In this document: piece by piece, positions 6,311 to 22,156 of the stretch | How the letters are laid out: each line of letters starts with the position of its first letter | How positions within the stretch are numbered: position 1 is the first letter of the stretch | NCBI GenBank assembly: GCA_002049455.2 | Contig: KV918834.1 | Coordinates: 1-64,000, forward strand | Reading direction: 5' to 3' | DNA: 64,000 nucleotides | From: Porphyra umbilicalis | Taxonomy: Eukaryota > Rhodophyta > Bangiophyceae > Bangiales > Bangiaceae | The notes under the pieces: generated by a model | The model's database searches: none | What the model saw: only the letters and a program-made list of their open reading frames with translations | What the model was told of the DNA's origin: nothing | Position numbers and translations under genes: made by a program

Positions 6311-7687
6311 TCACCCAGTCGCCGCGTTCGATGAGCCATTCCCGATTGCCACCCCCTCGCTCCCGTTCTCGCCTGCCTCCTCCTTATGGGAGTACGTGAA
6401 CTGGTCAATGATGCTATTGTCCGCGCCGCAGTAGGCCACCCTGGCCGGCTCGTACGCAGCCGACTGGACGTACGTCATCAGCACGCATTCGTCGCCAGTC
6501 TCCCCCCGCCGCGCGCCCCCCCCATTGAGCGTGAACGCGTCGTCCGCGTCAATGCCCAGCGCGTAGGTGGTCCACCGCGCGCCATTGGTGAGGTTCACCA
6601 CATCCACAGCCTCAAACTCCTTGATCCCCGCGGCGGCCATCAGATTGCGCGACACCCCGACGCTCCCATGGTACCGAACGCTCTTGTCCGTAACGCGAAC
6701 CCCGTGGAGCTTGGAAGCTACCCATCGGCGCACCAGCGGTGGCGACGGCGCGACGGTGGCGTCGGCGTCGGCGGCGGCGGCGGCGGTGGTGCGCCCCCCC
6801 ACCTTCTGGCCGACCAGTGCGAACCACGCCTGCGCCTCCCCGTTGCACAGGGCCTCAATGTTGGCGCCCAGCAGCCCCGCATAGGTGTCGAGGTAGGCGT
6901 CAGAGCAGCGATCGAGGCGCGCCCGTTCCGACGAAATCCGCCCCACCATGCGGCGGTAGTTTGTGACCAGCTGGCCCGACAGGTCGCGTGTGCGAAGGGT
7001 GGTCACACCCGCAGCGGCGAGGCCCACCTCGTACGCGCTGGGGGTGAGCAGCTCGTCCACATGCAGGCGCTCCTTAAAAGCCGACAGCACGGACGCATCA
7101 GCCGCCGGCCCCGCCATGATGTCACTCATCACCACGTGACCGCCGGGCACCAGCACACGGGCGGCTTCGGCAAAGACCTTGTCTTTGGCGTTGGAGTGCA
7201 CGATTGCATCCTGCGACCACACAATGTTGAAGGAAGCTGTCCAGTCGGCGGGGAGCTTCTCAAATGAGCCGGTCACGACGGTGACGAGGTCGCTCAGGTC
7301 GCGCGCCACCACCTCCGACCTGTTGGCCGCATTCTGTTCCGCACACAAATTGAGGCACGTGACGGAGCACCCCGTCTCGGCGGCGAGCTTGTGCGCCGCC
7401 CCGCCGTTGCCCGCCCCCAAATCCAGCACCTTCACACCCGGCCCAAACGTCACGCCCGCCGACTCGCCCAGCGATCGGAGAACAGCAATGGTGTTCTCCG
7501 CGGCGTCGCGTGTCGAGTCACTTGCCTTCGTATAAACGCCATAGTGCACGTCCGAGCCGCCGTCTCCCATGACCACCGAATAGAACTGGGCCGACTCGGG
7601 AGTATCATACTGTGCCAGCACCGTAGAGGTCGTGTCGCCGGCCTCGGGAGCTTGGGCGGGGGCGTTCCCACTGTTGGTGCCTGTCAT
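6311..7687 (-). CDS. Bifunctional N-methyltransferase / aspartate 1-decarboxylase (PanD) fusion, predicted beta-alanine N-methylation
   Basis: Single uninterrupted frame; I prefer the ATG at 7687 (458 aa). Residues about 25-300 are a class I SAM methyltransferase of the glycine-sarcosine / sarcosine-dimethylglycine type: QFYSVVMGDGGSDVHYGVY near 35-52, the SAM loop VKVLDLGAGNGG at 86-96, and IVWSQDAIVH at 155-164. Residues about 319-430 are a full PanD domain: KLHGVRVTDKSVRYHGS, then NLTNGARWTTYAL, then TLNGGGA. PanD key residues are all visible: Lys326, the Gly341-Ser342 self-cleavage pair (codons at 6667-6662), Arg371, Tyr375 and Asn388. Known chemistry: PanD makes beta-alanine from L-aspartate using a pyruvoyl group formed from that Ser. 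Inference: the fused methyltransferase methylates beta-alanine, towards beta-alanine betaine. Self-cleavage would leave the methyltransferase attached to the PanD beta chain and free a C-terminal alpha chain of about 117 aa. An alternative in-frame ATG at 7900 adds 71 Ser/Pro/His-rich residues, possibly leader or 5' UTR. Confidence 0.9.
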   Translation of the reverse strand: MTGTNSGNAPAQAPEAGDTTSTVLAQYDTPESAQFYSVVMGDGGSDVHYGVYTKASDSTRDAAENTIAVLRSLGESAGVTFGPGVKVLDLGAGNGGAAHKLAAETGCSVTCLNLCAEQNAANRSEVVARDLSDLVTVVTGSFEKLPADWTASFNIVWSQDAIVHSNAKDKVFAEAARVLVPGGHVVMSDIMAGPAADASVLSAFKERLHVDELLTPSAYEVGLAAAGVTTLRTRDLSGQLVTNYRRMVGRISSERARLDRCSDAYLDTYAGLLGANIEALCNGEAQAWFALVGQKVGGRTTAAAAADADATVAPSPPLVRRWVASKLHGVRVTDKSVRYHGSVGVSRNLMAAAGIKEFEAVDVVNLTNGARWTTYALGIDADDAFTLNGGGARRGETGDECVLMTYVQSAAYEPARVAYCGADNSIIDQFTYSHKEEAGENGSEGVAIGNGSSNAATG

Positions 7688-8808
7688 GGTGACGGACGCG
7701 TGGGCGAGGAAGCGGAGGGAGGCGGAACGTGCACAGGGCGTAGCCGGAGAATGGGGTAAGCGGCAGGGAATGTGGTCCTGGAGGGGCGGGTGCTTGCTTG
7801 ATGAGATGTGGGGCGGATCGGGGATGGTGGAGACAGGCGGTCGGTGGCGATGGAGCTGCATTCGATGGCCACCACCTATTAATACAGTGCCTCCTCGCAT
7901 CTGTTCACCGACTGCCCCAAACAGTAGCCCCCATCACGATCAAGCATGGCGACGGGGAAAAGAAAAAATAGAACAGGCAAGCGGATTGCAAGATGACTCT
8001 TCCACATGTTGCTGACAAACGGTTGTTCAAGCCGTCCCAGTCATATCTAAGTACGGTATCGAATCCAATCGCCAGGTGCTTGGCCGCAGGACGACCATAC
8101 AGAAAGAGGCGATTCGTCCGGCGCACCGTCCTGAACCGCCATCCCCGCCCAGCCCCGTCCCAGTACGCATAAAGCTGCCGTTCTTGGGGATGTGTCACCC
8201 CTCCCCCATGGTCTCCTCCTTCCTTTCTACCCCCACCCAACCCTCCACTGACGTTGTGGCCTGCTGGCCCCGTCCTGGACGGCCGTCGAGGCGGTCGGCC
8301 GAGGGAGTAATGGGGGTCGTCTTACTCGCGCCGGTGTCGCACACGCTGTTTCTTCTCCCCATCGAGCCGAGCGTTGACATTCTGTTGCGGTCGTGGCCTT
8401 CTTCGGCAGTCTGGGCGGCCGCGCCGTCGCGACGGCGTCACAGTGTGCCCTCTGTGTTCAGAAACTACAGTGTTAAGATTAGAATGCGAACGAGATTCGC
8501 GAAATCCAGGGGTTGTCTTCAACTTGATGACAACAATCTGGCTGTACTACCCTCTGACAGTACGTCTTCGTCGGTGCTACTTTCTGGAATACGTCTCAGG
8601 TGAAATGTTGCCAGTGCGAACAGATGCGAGGCACTGTTAACGTACCAGAAGGACGTGCGACGCGGCCCAGTGTCAGCGCTCAACGTCCTGTCCAAGGGTC
8701 GGCTCAAAGCGAGTGCCGGCGATGGACCGGCCAACTTTTCTTCCCGCTGTCCTCCCCTGTCCTCGGCGGCGATGATCTGGGGGTGCGCTATCGTCACAAA
8801 GACTGCAT
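7688..8808. other. Upstream region of the methyltransferase-PanD gene; no other gene recognised
   Basis: GC content falls here compared with the first 6 kb. An AT-rich TATTAATA stands at about 7877-7884, some 190 bp upstream of the preferred ATG and on a suitable side for the gene's promoter; this is weak evidence. Open frames such as plus 8076-8603 and minus 7905-8240 show no recognisable domain or codon bias. Confidence 0.35.
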
Positions 8809-16601: not shown

Positions 16602-19600
16602 CTAGGCATCCGGTCCCGGCACCGGGCGCGGTGCCGGTGTGACGTCGTTACTGTTGACCCGTCCTTCGCCATCGCCTTGGTCGATTACGAAGTAGGTGCC
16701 GTCCGTATCGAGAATCTCAAACGAGCCAAGGGCCTTGGGCAGCAGCTTGTGCCCCCCGCGGTGGGAGCGGAGGTAGACGAAGTCACCGACCACCAGGTCC
16801 TTGTTCTTCGGCCGTACCCGGCTGTCCCAGTCTCGCTTATAGCGAGCTTGGTACTTGTCAAGGGAAGCGCGCACCGTCGGGATGAGCTTTTTCAAGCCCT
16901 GGATGATGGCGCGTTTCACCATGAGCGGGGAGCCATCGGCGGATGCCAGCGGGGACGAGCCAGCGAGGCCCTCAACCGTGAGGTTGGGCATACGGCGGGG
17001 GATCAGGAGGTCGAACGGCGCCATACCGGTGGCCCTATGCGGGCAGGTGTTGTACGCCAGGCTTAGGGCGGGGAGGAGGCGATCCCACTGGCGAGGGTGC
17101 TCCTCACAGAAGGCCCGGATCTGGTTCAGCAGCGTACGGTTATACCGTTCCACGTGACCGTTGGTCTGCGGATGGTAGGGCGTCGTGTATTTGCACCTCG
17201 TGCCCAACATCTTCATGACGGCGCGGAAGAACGCGTTGTCCATCTGTCGACCCTGGTCCGATAGGACGCAGTCGGGGGGCCCATAGGCCGCGACCCATGC
17301 GGTCAGGAACGCCGACGCGACCGTGACGGCGGTGATACGTCGGAGCGCAACCGTACGGGTTAGCTTCGAGAAGCGGTCGGACATGACGAACACATACCGG
17401 TTGCCGTCAACCGTGTTGAGCAGCGGTCCGAGGATGTCAATGCCAACCTCGGTCAACGGTTCCTTTGGCGGGAACAGGGTCATGGGGGACGTATGTCGTC
17501 GCTCCTGCAGCCGGTTCTTCGCGCACGGCGGGCACTGCCGGACGAAGTCGTACAGGTCGACAATCATCGACTCCCAATAGAAGCAACGCTTCATGGCGGC
17601 GTACATCCGCTGCACCCCAGGGTGACCTTTGGTCGTCGGGTAGTGCTCGAGGCCCATCACGCGGGAGCGTAGGGCCTCGGGGATGTATACTTGCATAACG
17701 TCCGTCGTTGGCTGACGGCGCACGAGGCGGCCTTCCTCATCGAGGACGAACCGCGTCGGCTTGCCCGAGTCGATCACGGCGCGTAGCTGCTGGCATCGGC
17801 CGTCTGCGCCTTGTGCGCGAAGGAGCTCCTCCGCTGTGATAGGGGGAGGCGGTAACGGCGCCGAGAAGTTGTTGGCGTCCGAGCCCCTTGCGGCCTGAGC
17901 TAGAAGGAAGCATGGGATGTCGTCGTCCAGCTCCTTCTTGTCCAGACCCGTCGTGGGTACGCGGGACAGGGCATCGGGGAGGTGGTGGTTCGCTCCCTTC
18001 TTGTACTTCACCTCGAAGACGAACTCCGCTAAGCGGAGGCGCCAACGGAGCAGACGACCGGTGGCCGTAGTCAGCCGGTAGATCCAACTGAGGCATTTGT
18101 GGTCGGTACGCACCGTGAACCGCGAGCCCTCCACATAGTGTCGGAGGTGGAGCACGGCCCAGACGAGGCCCAGGCACTCCTTCTCGGTGGCCGAATAGTT
18201 GCGTTGCTCGGGCTGCAGGGCGCGGCTGTAGAACCCCACGGGTTTGAGCTGGCCGTCCTGCTGCTCTTGGAGCAGGGCGCACCCCAATTGGGTGTCGCAC
18301 GCATCGACGTCAATGGTGAAGGGCGCTCCGCGGCGGGGGAGCGCCAGGACCGGCGGATGAAGCAGCGCGTCGCGTAGGCGCGTGAACGCTGCGGCCTGTG
18401 TCTCGGTGAACGTCGGGAGCGTGTCGCCGTACGCCTTGGTTGTCAGCTGGTTTAGGGGCGCTGCGATCCGTGCGTAGTTCGCGACGAAGCGGCGGTACAC
18501 GTTACACATGCCGAGGAAGCTACGCAATTGCGTCTTTGTTCGCGGGTGACCTACCTTCGCGAGCGCCTCCAGGTTCTTGTTGTGCACCCGCATCTCCCCA
18601 GGGGATATGATGTGCCCGAGGTACTCGACGGACGTCTGGAAGAACTGGCACTTCTTGGCTTTCAACGTGACGCCGGCCCGACCCAAGCGGGTCAGGGCTT
18701 CGTCGAGCGCTTTCACGTGGTTCTCCGGGGTGTCGGAGAAGACGATGACATCGTCGAGGTAGACAAGGCACGTTTGCCAGGTCATCCCGGACAGGATGAT
18801 GTCGAGGGCACGTTGGAAGGTCGCAGGAGCGTTGGTGAGGCCGAAGGCCATCTTCAGATACTCGTACGTGCCCATGTGGCAGGTGAAAGCGGTCTTGTCG
18901 ATGTCGTCCAGGGCCATGGGTATCTGCCAATACCCGGCATTGCAGTCGAGCGTTGAGAAGACGCGGGCGTCTCCCAGCGAGTCGATGCAATCCTCCATCC
19001 GCGGGATGGGATAGGAGTCCTTCTTGGTCACCGCATTGAGACGACGGTAGTCGACGCAAAAGCGTGGCGACCCGGCTTTCTTGGGGACGACAACGACAGG
19101 GCTGGCCCATTCACTGGTACTTGGTCGGACGACCTTGGCTTCCAGCATCCGATTGACCTCGTCACGGATCATGTCACGGGCATGGTGACCCGCGCGGTAC
19201 GGTTGCTGCCGTATTGGCTTCGTCCCGGGTTGGAGCTCCACGCGGTGGACGGTGGCGTCGATGGAGCCGAGCGTCCCGTCCAGCATATACGCATGGCGGC
19301 GGATGAGTGCCTGGACATCCGGCAGTAGCCGGTCGGGTACGCCAGAGAGATCGACTTGGTCTAGCACCGCTTCTGCGGTCGCGGTGGGCGATGCCGCGTC
19401 GTCAGTGACGAGCAGGCAGTCGACATCGTCGACCGGGCTAACGGTAGCGAGGATAGTTCCCTTGCGGAGGCAGACCGGTTTGTCGCTGAGGTTAGCGACT
19501 TCAACGCTGAAGCGTTGCCCCGGGACAACGACGGCCAACCCACGCGCCGTTTGACAGCGGTGATGCTTGTGAAGGCGGTTGTACGGCGCGACTAGGACCT

Positions 19601-20192
19601 GACCAGCGAGGTCGGCGGTGACCAGCAGGGCCGTCCGGGTTTGCGGGGGCAGCACCCGTCGTTGCGCGAGGCGCACCGTCGCATCCTTTGGGGATCGGCG
19701 GCGTTCTTTCTTGCCGCGTGCCGTGCAAGATAAGATGGGCACCGAAGCATCGGTGGACCATCTGACGCGTTGACGGCGTGGGTAGAGCGCCTCGACGTGG
19801 CAGTTGATGAAAATGGTGCCGAGCAGCACAGGGACGGCGAGGCGTGGGACGACGACAAAGTCGACGTCCGTGGCGAAGCCACCGGAGCGCAGGCGTAGGG
19901 TGATCATGCCTCGGGCGGAGATAGGGGTTTTATTTGCGTCCACAATGTGGGGCAAATGAGGGCGTCGATGCAACCGCCGCTCCCAACCCTTGGGCAGGGC
20001 GTCCACCCGAATGATCGAGGGCCCGGCGCCTGTATCCAGGGTCGGTGTCATCAGCCGCATGCGAGCCTCGTCAAAGCCGAGGGCCGCGGGGATGGTATAC
20101 TGCCGGTATACCGGAGCCAAGACACGGTGTATCCGTATCTTTGGACCCTGCGGGCTGGGGGCGCCACGGGGCGGCCGAGCCGCTAGCGGCAC
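16602..20192 (-). CDS. pol: Gypsy-1 pol (protease, RT, RNase H, integrase)
   Basis: One open frame of 1196 codons. In order: an aspartic protease with LDTGAGPSIIRVDALP near the N-terminus; reverse transcriptase with RFCVDYRRLN and the YLDD box (LVYLDDVIVFS) near 18750; RNase H with FTIDVDACDTQLGCALL; an HHCC zinc finger (GHPGVQRMYAAMKR ... CPPCAKNR); the DDE core (DILGPLLNTVDGNRYVFV, then HPQTNGHVERYN); and a terminal GPY/F-like region. This order is that of Ty3/Gypsy. The frame looks intact. It begins a few bases after the gag stop. Confidence 0.94.
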   Translation of the reverse strand: MPLAARPPRGAPSPQGPKIRIHRVLAPVYRQYTIPAALGFDEARMRLMTPTLDTGAGPSIIRVDALPKGWERRLHRRPHLPHIVDANKTPISARGMITLRLRSGGFATDVDFVVVPRLAVPVLLGTIFINCHVEALYPRRQRVRWSTDASVPILSCTARGKKERRRSPKDATVRLAQRRVLPPQTRTALLVTADLAGQVLVAPYNRLHKHHRCQTARGLAVVVPGQRFSVEVANLSDKPVCLRKGTILATVSPVDDVDCLLVTDDAASPTATAEAVLDQVDLSGVPDRLLPDVQALIRRHAYMLDGTLGSIDATVHRVELQPGTKPIRQQPYRAGHHARDMIRDEVNRMLEAKVVRPSTSEWASPVVVVPKKAGSPRFCVDYRRLNAVTKKDSYPIPRMEDCIDSLGDARVFSTLDCNAGYWQIPMALDDIDKTAFTCHMGTYEYLKMAFGLTNAPATFQRALDIILSGMTWQTCLVYLDDVIVFSDTPENHVKALDEALTRLGRAGVTLKAKKCQFFQTSVEYLGHIISPGEMRVHNKNLEALAKVGHPRTKTQLRSFLGMCNVYRRFVANYARIAAPLNQLTTKAYGDTLPTFTETQAAAFTRLRDALLHPPVLALPRRGAPFTIDVDACDTQLGCALLQEQQDGQLKPVGFYSRALQPEQRNYSATEKECLGLVWAVLHLRHYVEGSRFTVRTDHKCLSWIYRLTTATGRLLRWRLRLAEFVFEVKYKKGANHHLPDALSRVPTTGLDKKELDDDIPCFLLAQAARGSDANNFSAPLPPPPITAEELLRAQGADGRCQQLRAVIDSGKPTRFVLDEEGRLVRRQPTTDVMQVYIPEALRSRVMGLEHYPTTKGHPGVQRMYAAMKRCFYWESMIVDLYDFVRQCPPCAKNRLQERRHTSPMTLFPPKEPLTEVGIDILGPLLNTVDGNRYVFVMSDRFSKLTRTVALRRITAVTVASAFLTAWVAAYGPPDCVLSDQGRQMDNAFFRAVMKMLGTRCKYTTPYHPQTNGHVERYNRTLLNQIRAFCEEHPRQWDRLLPALSLAYNTCPHRATGMAPFDLLIPRRMPNLTVEGLAGSSPLASADGSPLMVKRAIIQGLKKLIPTVRASLDKYQARYKRDWDSRVRPKNKDLVVGDFVYLRSHRGGHKLLPKALGSFEILDTDGTYFVIDQGDGEGRVNSNDVTPAPRPVPGPDA

Positions 20193-20200
20193 GCCCCGTG

Positions 20201-22156
20201 TTAGTTTCCCGGCCCGGCAGGGGCAGGTGGGTCCACCGTTGGACTCGGATCCGGTTGCGGATCCCTGGGCGAGGCGCCGACCGTCTCGTCTCCGCTGAGG
20301 GAGCCGGTGTCGTCCGGCACCAGCGGATCACCCCAGGGGTCCCCGGCGATGGCGGCCATCGCGTATTGCATACGACTCGGGCGTAAGGCAGGACGGGCCG
20401 CGCCAGGGGGTCCCGGGGCGACCGCAGGCGGCGCACCTGTCCCCATCGCCCGGTAAAGCGAAGGACATACGCGGGCGTAGTGACCGAAACCGCGGCAGCG
20501 GTGGCACTGCACCTGGCTCAGGTGGACCAGAGCCGGCCGTCCCGCCGGGCCGCCCGGTCGGGGAGACCATTGGGTTGCCGTTCTGGCCGACGGCGTCCGG
20601 GCCGCCGGTGGCGTAGGGTTGAATGCCTGGAACGGCTGCTGCGGTAGAGGCCGACCCATGGGGTTCCGGCTCTGTGGCGGCGTGGCCTCCGACGTCGTCG
20701 CTGGTGGCGCCGCCCAGAGGACCGGTTCGGCTTTTGCTCCGCTCCCGGCGCCCAGCTGCAGGACGCTCTTGGCCTTGGCGTACCGGTCGGCTTTACCGGT
20801 GGTGACCTTGACCGAGCGGAGCCCATCGCCGATCTTCTGCGAAAGCGCCACGAGTTCGTCGAAGGTGGCGCATGTGCGGTCGGCCAGCTCGGCTTGGGCA
20901 CGTACCGAGGGGTGGAGCCCTTTCAGGAACAGGTACCGTAGCTGCCCCGGGTCGTACATACCCATGAGCTGTCGGCCGAGCCTCATCAACCGCTGATAGA
21001 AAGCGCGTTCGCCTTCGTCTTGGCGCTGCTCCGCGGTGCGGAGGGCCATTTCGGCGGTGTGCAGGGCGTCTTCGGGTGCATAGCGGGTCAACAGATAGTT
21101 GATCGTGTGCGGGAAACTGGTACCGACGGCGCTGCCGTGTGGGCCATTTGTTTCCTGGACGAAGTCGTCCTTGGCCTCACCGCCAATGCGGTAGGCGAGG
21201 AGGTACGGGGCCTCGCCCAGAGTGACATCCATTTCGTCCGCGGCTGTGCGGAAGCGAGTGAGGAGCGCCAGGACGGCCAGCGGATCCGAGCCATCGAAGA
21301 GCGTGACGCCGTGGAACGGACCGTCCAGCAGGCGATGGCGCCTGCGGAGTTGGCTTGCTTGCGACCGGCCATACGTCGGATCCGCATTGCGGACGAGGTA
21401 GCGGCGAAAGTCGAGCAGCGACGAGAACGGGCCATGCTTGGACGTCAAGGGGAGCGGCCAGGGGATGACCGCCATTGGCGTCGAAGCTGTCCGACCGGTG
21501 ACCCGCGTGCGGGTGCGGCGCCGCGAGCGAACGCGGTGGCGCGCGGGGCCGGTGCTGTCACTGCTGCTGCTGCTGCTGGGGTCTCGGCGCGGCTTGTCGT
21601 CATCGGCAGACCGCGAAGAGCGGGCGTCGGGATCCGATCGTACGCCCGCGCTCCGCGAGGCCAACGGCGACGTTGAGGCAGCGGACCTGCGCGACCGGGG
21701 CCGGTCGCGCGGGGCCGGGGTGTTTGCCGGTGTTAGGTCAGTGGGCCGGGGTCCACTGGCGGTCGACATCGGCAACGTCCCAGTTGGGTCGCGCAACGTT
21801 GTCACGTCGGCGCGTAGCTCTCGGACGGACGCGGCCAACGTACGCACGAGCGTCGTTAACTCGGCGACCGCCGATTGCTCCGCGCGACGACTAGTATCGC
21901 CGGGGGAAGCGCCCGAGCCGCCCGAAGCGGGAGCCGCTGCGGTTGGATCGGGGAGACCAGAGGCATCGTGGGGAAGAGGGGGAGTCGTAGTCGCAGGGGC
22001 TGACCCGTCGGCCGTACGCCGAGCGTCAGCGCCCGTATCATGAGGGGGGGCAAAGCGCGGGGGATCGGCACCCCCGCTCGCCATCGGAGATAGGTTGGCT
22101 TCTTGTCTCGAGATAGCACAAACCCGGACACGACGGCACCACGGCCCGTCGGGCAC
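20201..22156 (-). CDS. gag: Gypsy-1 gag
   Basis: An open frame of 651 codons upstream of pol on the minus strand. It has a Ser/Arg/Asp-rich N-terminal third, a central capsid-like region (SSLLDFRRYLVRNADPTY, FKRTAADEMD-like helices, LLTRYAPEDALHTAEMAL) and a CCHC zinc knuckle, CHRCRGFGHYARVC, near the C-terminus. This is the expected layout of a Ty3/Gypsy capsid protein. The frame looks whole. Confidence 0.9.
   Translation of the reverse strand: MPDGPWCRRVRVCAISRQEANLSPMASGGADPPRFAPPHDTGADARRTADGSAPATTTPPLPHDASGLPDPTAAAPASGGSGASPGDTSRRAEQSAVAELTTLVRTLAASVRELRADVTTLRDPTGTLPMSTASGPRPTDLTPANTPAPRDRPRSRRSAASTSPLASRSAGVRSDPDARSSRSADDDKPRRDPSSSSSSDSTGPARHRVRSRRRTRTRVTGRTASTPMAVIPWPLPLTSKHGPFSSLLDFRRYLVRNADPTYGRSQASQLRRRHRLLDGPFHGVTLFDGSDPLAVLALLTRFRTAADEMDVTLGEAPYLLAYRIGGEAKDDFVQETNGPHGSAVGTSFPHTINYLLTRYAPEDALHTAEMALRTAEQRQDEGERAFYQRLMRLGRQLMGMYDPGQLRYLFLKGLHPSVRAQAELADRTCATFDELVALSQKIGDGLRSVKVTTGKADRYAKAKSVLQLGAGSGAKAEPVLWAAPPATTSEATPPQSRNPMGRPLPQQPFQAFNPTPPAARTPSARTATQWSPRPGGPAGRPALVHLSQVQCHRCRGFGHYARVCPSLYRAMGTGAPPAVAPGPPGAARPALRPSRMQYAMAAIAGDPWGDPLVPDDTGSLSGDETVGASPRDPQPDPSPTVDPPAPAGPGN

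Follow-up and report, generated by a model that had tools for sequence, protein, structure and literature searches.

A red-algal fusion of an SDMT-like methyltransferase and aspartate decarboxylase as a candidate single-protein route from aspartate to N-methylated beta-alanine

The window analysed here is a 64,000-nucleotide stretch of Porphyra umbilicalis contig KV918834.1. At 6311..7687 on the minus strand it contains a single uninterrupted frame, from ATG to TGA, which encodes a 458-aa protein (P0001). The reading of the reverse complement has no inner stop, and the same frame on the forward strand of 6311-7687 is interrupted by stops. The protein has a methyltransferase (MT) similar to sarcosine/dimethylglycine methyltransferase (SDMT), followed by a linker and by PanD, the pyruvoyl aspartate decarboxylase. 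The features are:

6311..7687, minus strand: complete coding sequence, 458 aa, single open frame, with the TGA stop at 6311-6313 (translation and relatives)
6797..7630, minus strand: SDMT-like SAM-dependent methyltransferase domain, residues 20-297
7400..7429, minus strand: SAM-binding motif I VLDLGAGNGG, residues 87-96, with its Asp and four of its glycines fixed in red-type MTs
7205..7219, minus strand: WSQDA motif, residues 157-161, common to SDMT-type proteins (alignment)
6947..6961, minus strand: NYRRM, residues 243-247 (alignment of 13 red-type and 17 SDMT-type rows)
6734..6796, minus strand: linker rich in Ala, Thr and Asp (residues 298-318), parts of which have very low predicted confidence (pLDDT and variable length in relatives)
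6392..6733, minus strand: PanD (aspartate 1-decarboxylase) domain, residues 319-432 (PF02261, 93.5 bits; PDB PanD chains)
6710..6712, minus strand: Lys326, counterpart of E. coli PanD Lys9 (alignment)
6662..6667, minus strand: Gly341-Ser342, predicted self-cleavage site giving a pyruvoyl group (alignment)

The profile matches to the protein (PF02261, E=1e-26; Methyltransf_11, E=5.2e-15) are both far beyond chance, and the one-frame fusion proposed by the sequence-only reading is borne out. Relatives with 46-64% identity have the same domain order, so GC-rich DNA does not explain the open frame. An in-frame ATG upstream at 7900 would give 529 aa. It is probably not the true start, since N-terminally complete relatives begin close to the Met of the 458-aa frame. 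The linker varies in length among the fusion relatives, and its predicted structure has a pLDDT below 50 at residues 299-305 and 307-312.

The assembly comprises 83.8 Mb in 665 contigs. It has 12 phycobilisome linker matches, 4 on contig C665 (possibly the plastid) and 8 elsewhere. The contig of the fusion is 275 kb long. About 9 kb from the gene, a long open frame at 16605-20327 on the minus strand encodes the reverse transcriptase, RNase H and integrase domains of an LTR retroelement (Pfam); the other 7 of the 8 long frames scanned have no Pfam match. Given its length and the nearby retroelement frame, the contig is not a bacterial contaminant.

The PanD half scores 93.5 bits with PF02261 against a gathering score of 25 and so belongs to the family. 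All eight of the E. coli PanD positions compared (Lys9, Tyr22, Gly24, Ser25, Arg54, Thr57, Tyr58 and Asn72) are kept. The pairs Lys326/Lys9, Gly341-Ser342/Gly24-Ser25, Arg371/Arg54, Tyr375/Tyr58 and Asn388/Asn72 agree with the complete active-site set that had been read from the sequence, and the position of E. coli Trp47 is Val. Cleavage between Gly341 and Ser342 would yield chains of 35.5 kDa (1-341) and 12.1 kDa (342-458). Several crystallised E. coli PanD chains carry about 17 extra N-terminal residues (PDB); therefore, an N-terminal partner on PanD is not implausible. The lists from the fold searches contain no PanD chains because matches to the MT domain filled them.

The PanD half is the only PF02261 match in the 83.8 Mb genome. 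A profile search with PF00282, a family of PLP-type decarboxylases that we take to include the animal-type aspartate and cysteine-sulfinate decarboxylases, gave no match; these genome searches covered six frames exon by exon, so absence is not absolute. Among the control genomes, each profile matched 8 of 14. PanB and PanC are present. Since the sole PanD match lies in the fusion and PF00282 is without a match, the beta-alanine for vitamin B5 is probably supplied by the fusion protein. The suggested link to vitamin B5 is thus upheld at the gene level. One dihydropyrimidinase-like gene (134.6 bits against a cut-off of 393) could mark another source of beta-alanine; the same model also matches all 14 control genomes. 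Seven of nine whole bacterial genomes have one PanD match at E<=1e-10, and G002 and G007 have two each. In the single-PanD genomes G001, G003 and G004 the PanD is of the fusion's own group; therefore, this type of PanD can probably serve vitamin B5 synthesis.

The PanD half falls in a bacterial-type group whose members come from proteobacteria, acidobacteria and cyanobacteria. In a quick tree the fusion PanD lies within a supported set (SH-aLRT 99; 81 of 104 rows) shared with Hyphomicrobium, some cyanobacteria and a MAG of Thermoanaerobaculia, and the internal order is without resolution (117 columns). RWxTY is invariant in the 36 PanDs aligned. In L010-L013 and a set of unfused PanDs, RWxTY replaces the RFSTY of E. 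coli, and these proteins separate from the ordinary PanD of cyanobacteria. The unfused P0022, P0024 and P0052 (the last truncated) fall among the fusion PanD halves in the tree. A single clade of fusion PanD halves is compatible with the data (p-AU 0.295; 8 fusion rows, with P0014 left out), so that either repeated fusion or a lost MT half may explain the tree. P0022 has a short N-terminal tail, MTNSVNG, which resembles the fusion starts, and Cys at the Asn72 place; it is possibly a fusion minus its MT half.

The nearest relatives of the MT half by sequence and fold are SDMT-type proteins. Thirteen red-type MTs were compared with 17 of these, which were picked by similarity and are SDMT-type by sequence alone. 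The two sets have a common core that includes Tyr27, Tyr36, His48, the GxGxGG motif, Asn113, Asn119, WSQDA, His164, Arg177, Asp189, Tyr244 and Arg246, in agreement with the SDMT relationship first proposed. In motif I, Asp89 and glycines 91, 93, 95 and 96 are invariant in 13 of 13 red-type MTs and are destroyed in P0020 and P0021. Position 243 is Asn in all 13 red-type MTs and His in all 17 SDMT-type proteins, and position 245 is a fixed Arg in the former and Ser, Asp, Thr or Gly in the latter. Cys115 is Ser in 16 of the 17 SDMT-type proteins, and Arg232, Arg234 and Arg250 are, like Arg245, further fixed differences. Since several of these lie near the shared Tyr244 and Arg246 in sequence, an acceptor that differs from that of SDMT is plausible.

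The MT half therefore belongs to the wider SDMT-like family by its fold, SAM motif and core residues, and lacks the fixed residues of the His243 type. It scores 140 bits with NF041675 (sarcosine/dimethylglycine methyltransferase, NCBIfam), below the cut-off of 550, and the PanD half scores 69 bits with TIGR00223 (the panD equivalog, NCBIfam), below the cut-off of 106. Both halves thus lie outside the curated equivalog limits.

A bacterial two-MT protein was used as bait against the genome. Its SDMT-like half gave the only match, and its first half, which from its motif is taken to be a glycine/sarcosine methyltransferase (GSMT), matched nothing at E<=0.001. Without a GSMT-like match, no maker of sarcosine is seen for a glycine-betaine SDMT. 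At what is presumably, judged by motif, the position of the carboxylate-binding Arg of GSMT, P0001 has Met191, and Met is found in all 17 SDMT-type rows. In MpGSMT the carboxylate-binding residue is Arg167 (PMC5146677).

The fusion belongs to a family of 11 two-domain clusters (P0001-P0008, P0014, P0020 and P0021), 10 of them besides P0001. The two-domain order recurs in another alga, the one named relative being Pyropia vietnamensis MMPV_002797. Both halves are intact in six clusters (P0001, P0002, P0003, P0004, P0006 and P0007); P0014 is incomplete and is counted neither as intact nor as dead. No viral relatives of P0004 were found. The PanD active-site set is complete in 9 of the 11 clusters and fails in P0005 and P0008. 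In these two the MT is intact, while in PanD the lysine is replaced by Ala, the pyruvoyl Ser by Asn and Asn72 by Pro. P0020 and P0021 have the opposite pattern, with an intact PanD set and a destroyed SAM-binding motif.

The identities of the two halves run in opposite directions in the half-dead clusters. P0006 and P0020 are 44% identical in the MT and 77% in PanD, and P0001 and P0021 are 33% and 54% identical, respectively. P0001 and P0008 have 60% identity in the MT and 38% in PanD, and P0005 and P0008 have 91% and 74%. For comparison, the values for intact pairs are 68% and 72% (P0001/P0002) and 51% and 46% (P0004/P0007).

In the MT tree the 17 red-type MTs form one clade (94/89), with an internal order mostly without resolution and with P0021 and P0018 on long branches. 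P0005 and P0008 group with the MT-only P0009, P0010, P0012 and P0013 (100/100) and lie inside that group (89/80). The PanD remnant that P0005 and P0008 retain makes it most likely that this group once had a PanD half and lost it. The two MT-only genes of the P. umbilicalis genome, L003 and L004, are a sister pair (96/99), and no PanD remnants were found in their flanks.

It had been suggested that beta-alanine is channelled within a PanD-type tetramer. Channelling as a necessity is weakened, since in some relatives only one of the two halves is live and MT-only relatives occur in the same clade; much of the linker is also of low predicted confidence. The fusion probably provides co-expression and proximity rather than a compulsory channel.

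Neighbouring panD and MT genes also occur in bacteria. In a Patescibacteria MAG (L016) the panD gene is followed 4 bp on by an SDMT-like MT gene, and in a Parabeggiatoa MAG an MT of the same type (45% identical) lies about 5 kb from PanD in one gene run. These are the two of nine whole bacterial genomes examined in which MT and PanD are paired. The Parabeggiatoa run (L043:632-8397, NBMI01000055.1) is on one strand and contains PanD and an SDMT-like MT to which a second MT domain is joined. Judged by eye from motifs, it presumably also encodes three radical-SAM proteins, two of them lysine-aminomutase-like and one of B12 type, and has an indolepyruvate-oxidoreductase-like gene. The run looks like a small-molecule gene cluster.

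An MT was within the examined flanks at 1 of 13 PanD loci. Among 286 genomes of the phylum of G006, G006 alone had both MT and PanD at E<=1e-12. Among 369 genomes of the class of G008, the MT type of the pair occurs at E<=1e-35 in three including G008, and the two new ones have no PanD in the flanks examined. Wide bacterial occurrence of the pair was therefore rejected, since sampling of the 286 and 369 genomes gave no further cases. In the MT tree, where it was drawn as the outgroup, a 100/99 branch separates the bacterial MT type near PanD from every other row, so the pair is an analogy to the fusion and not its ancestor. The 4-bp pair lends weak independent support to the reading of the fusion. 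A cyanobacterial ancestor was also considered, since the sequence-only reading had proposed looking in cyanobacteria. Among the matches listed for 291 genomes, with the best 5 candidates scored in the larger ones, there was no fused protein and no adjacent MT and PanD.

In the proposed mechanism, the PanD half would cleave itself at Gly341/Ser342 to become a pyruvoyl enzyme and would decarboxylate aspartate to beta-alanine, probably as the only decarboxylase route of the alga. Pyruvoyl catalysis requires the free amine of aspartate; therefore, decarboxylation should precede methylation. The tethered SDMT-like half would then move methyls from SAM onto the amine of beta-alanine to give N-methylated beta-alanine, possibly beta-alanine betaine, and the remaining beta-alanine would pass to PanC for vitamin B5. 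We infer both activities, the acceptor and the number of methylations. Beta-alanine betaine has the same formula as leucine. In Pyropia haitanensis the betaine is reported to rise on drying, as an LC-MS annotation for which the available text of the report mentions no authentic standard (PMC12113544). Free beta-alanine occurs in red algae (PMC8123152).

Methylation of beta-alanine toward beta-alanine betaine is the reading that we infer to be best, because of the pairing of the activities, the MT's own fixed residues, the lack of a GSMT-like match and the P. haitanensis report. The chance that P0001 is a bifunctional enzyme taking aspartate to beta-alanine and on to N-methylated beta-alanine, possibly the betaine, seems about even. 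Points that count against it are that the MT could be a sarcosine/dimethylglycine enzyme, that the halves are separable, that the bacterial PanD-neighbour MTs are not of the red-algal type and stand at only 1 of the 13 PanD loci, that the P. haitanensis compound is an LC-MS annotation and that the dihydropyrimidinase-like gene could supply beta-alanine. A broader proposal is held only tentatively: one two-domain protein, containing the genome's only aspartate decarboxylase, may run both vitamin B5 precursor and beta-alanine betaine synthesis in red algae, and duplicated copies may each have lost one catalytic half, leaving pseudo-domains that are maybe scaffolds or regulators.

The halves may instead have unrelated jobs in one chain, with PanD serving vitamin B5, the MT acting as the sarcosine/dimethylglycine methyltransferase of glycine-betaine synthesis and the fusion only coupling expression. 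No named family is closer than SDMT, each half has died without the other in some relatives and the same genome has MT-only paralogues; however, nothing in the genome matched the GSMT-like half, and the fixed differences at Asn243, Arg245, Cys115 and other positions separate the MT from SDMT-type proteins, so this explanation is rather unlikely. These same differences would agree with an MT that acts on another small amine, such as GABA, a longer amino acid or a mycosporine-type compound, with the tether to PanD being historical. Methyltransferases of the same fold (MitM, AtmM and PMT) take many acceptors, but an accidental tether is hard to reconcile with the persistence of two intact halves in six of the 11 clusters, at identities as low as 46%, and this appears quite improbable.

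N-methyltaurines occur in red algae, and the PanD-type half could act on cysteate or cysteine sulfinate, with the MT half producing these compounds. This would suit a genome without a match to PF00282, the family of cysteine-sulfinate decarboxylase. Red algae are also reported as rich in taurine (PMC8123152). However, every PanD position compared is kept, the single PanD of G001, G003 and G004 is of the fusion's group and probably able to serve vitamin B5, and the alga would be left with no visible aspartate decarboxylase; a taurine branch is therefore very unlikely. That the fusion reflects a chimeric assembly, contamination by bacterial DNA or two distinct transcripts is hardly credible, since only the bacterial relatives of the PanD half could favour it, against the 275-kb contig with its retroelement frame, a GC3 of 0.81 and the recurrence of the fusion in independent clusters, including one of Pyropia vietnamensis.

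If the beta-alanine betaine reading is true, it would name a gene for algal beta-alanine betaine synthesis; the literature searched held no algal gene for this. It would also account for beta-alanine in a red alga in which no PLP-type decarboxylase was detected, and would tie vitamin B5 supply to the desiccation and salt tolerance of nori-type seaweeds. In the reciprocal decay, loss of function has naturally re-split a fused enzyme, and copies in which only one half is live offer natural controls for in vitro work. This decay is new here; the literature searched describes neither it nor the MT-linker-PanD order or its role as sole PanD.

Compared with known PanD (PF02261, TIGR00223), the fusion has the same sequence family and the active-site lysine, Tyr, Gly-Ser cleavage site, Arg, Thr, Tyr and Asn. 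It differs in its place behind a methyltransferase, in Val at E. coli Trp47, in its RWTTY and NGGGAR motifs and in falling under the TIGR00223 cut-off. The MT half is like SDMT (NF041675; Galdieria 2o57) in fold, SAM motif, WSQDA, Tyr27, Tyr36, His48, Tyr244 and Arg246, but differs in its score (140 bits against 550) and in the fixed Asn243, Arg245, Cys115, Arg232, Arg234 and Arg250. It resembles GSMT as a general SAM-dependent N-methyltransferase, but there is no GSMT-like match in the genome and Met191 stands at the presumed place of the Arg. The plant enzyme LlBANMT of Limonium latifolium stands alone, belongs to a different methyltransferase family and is not known to carry a fused PanD. 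The likeness is in the proposed reaction, from beta-alanine to beta-alanine betaine, as given for LlBANMT in PMC9699165. Both parts of the fusion are of known families; it is the domain architecture that is new, rather than the kind of enzyme.
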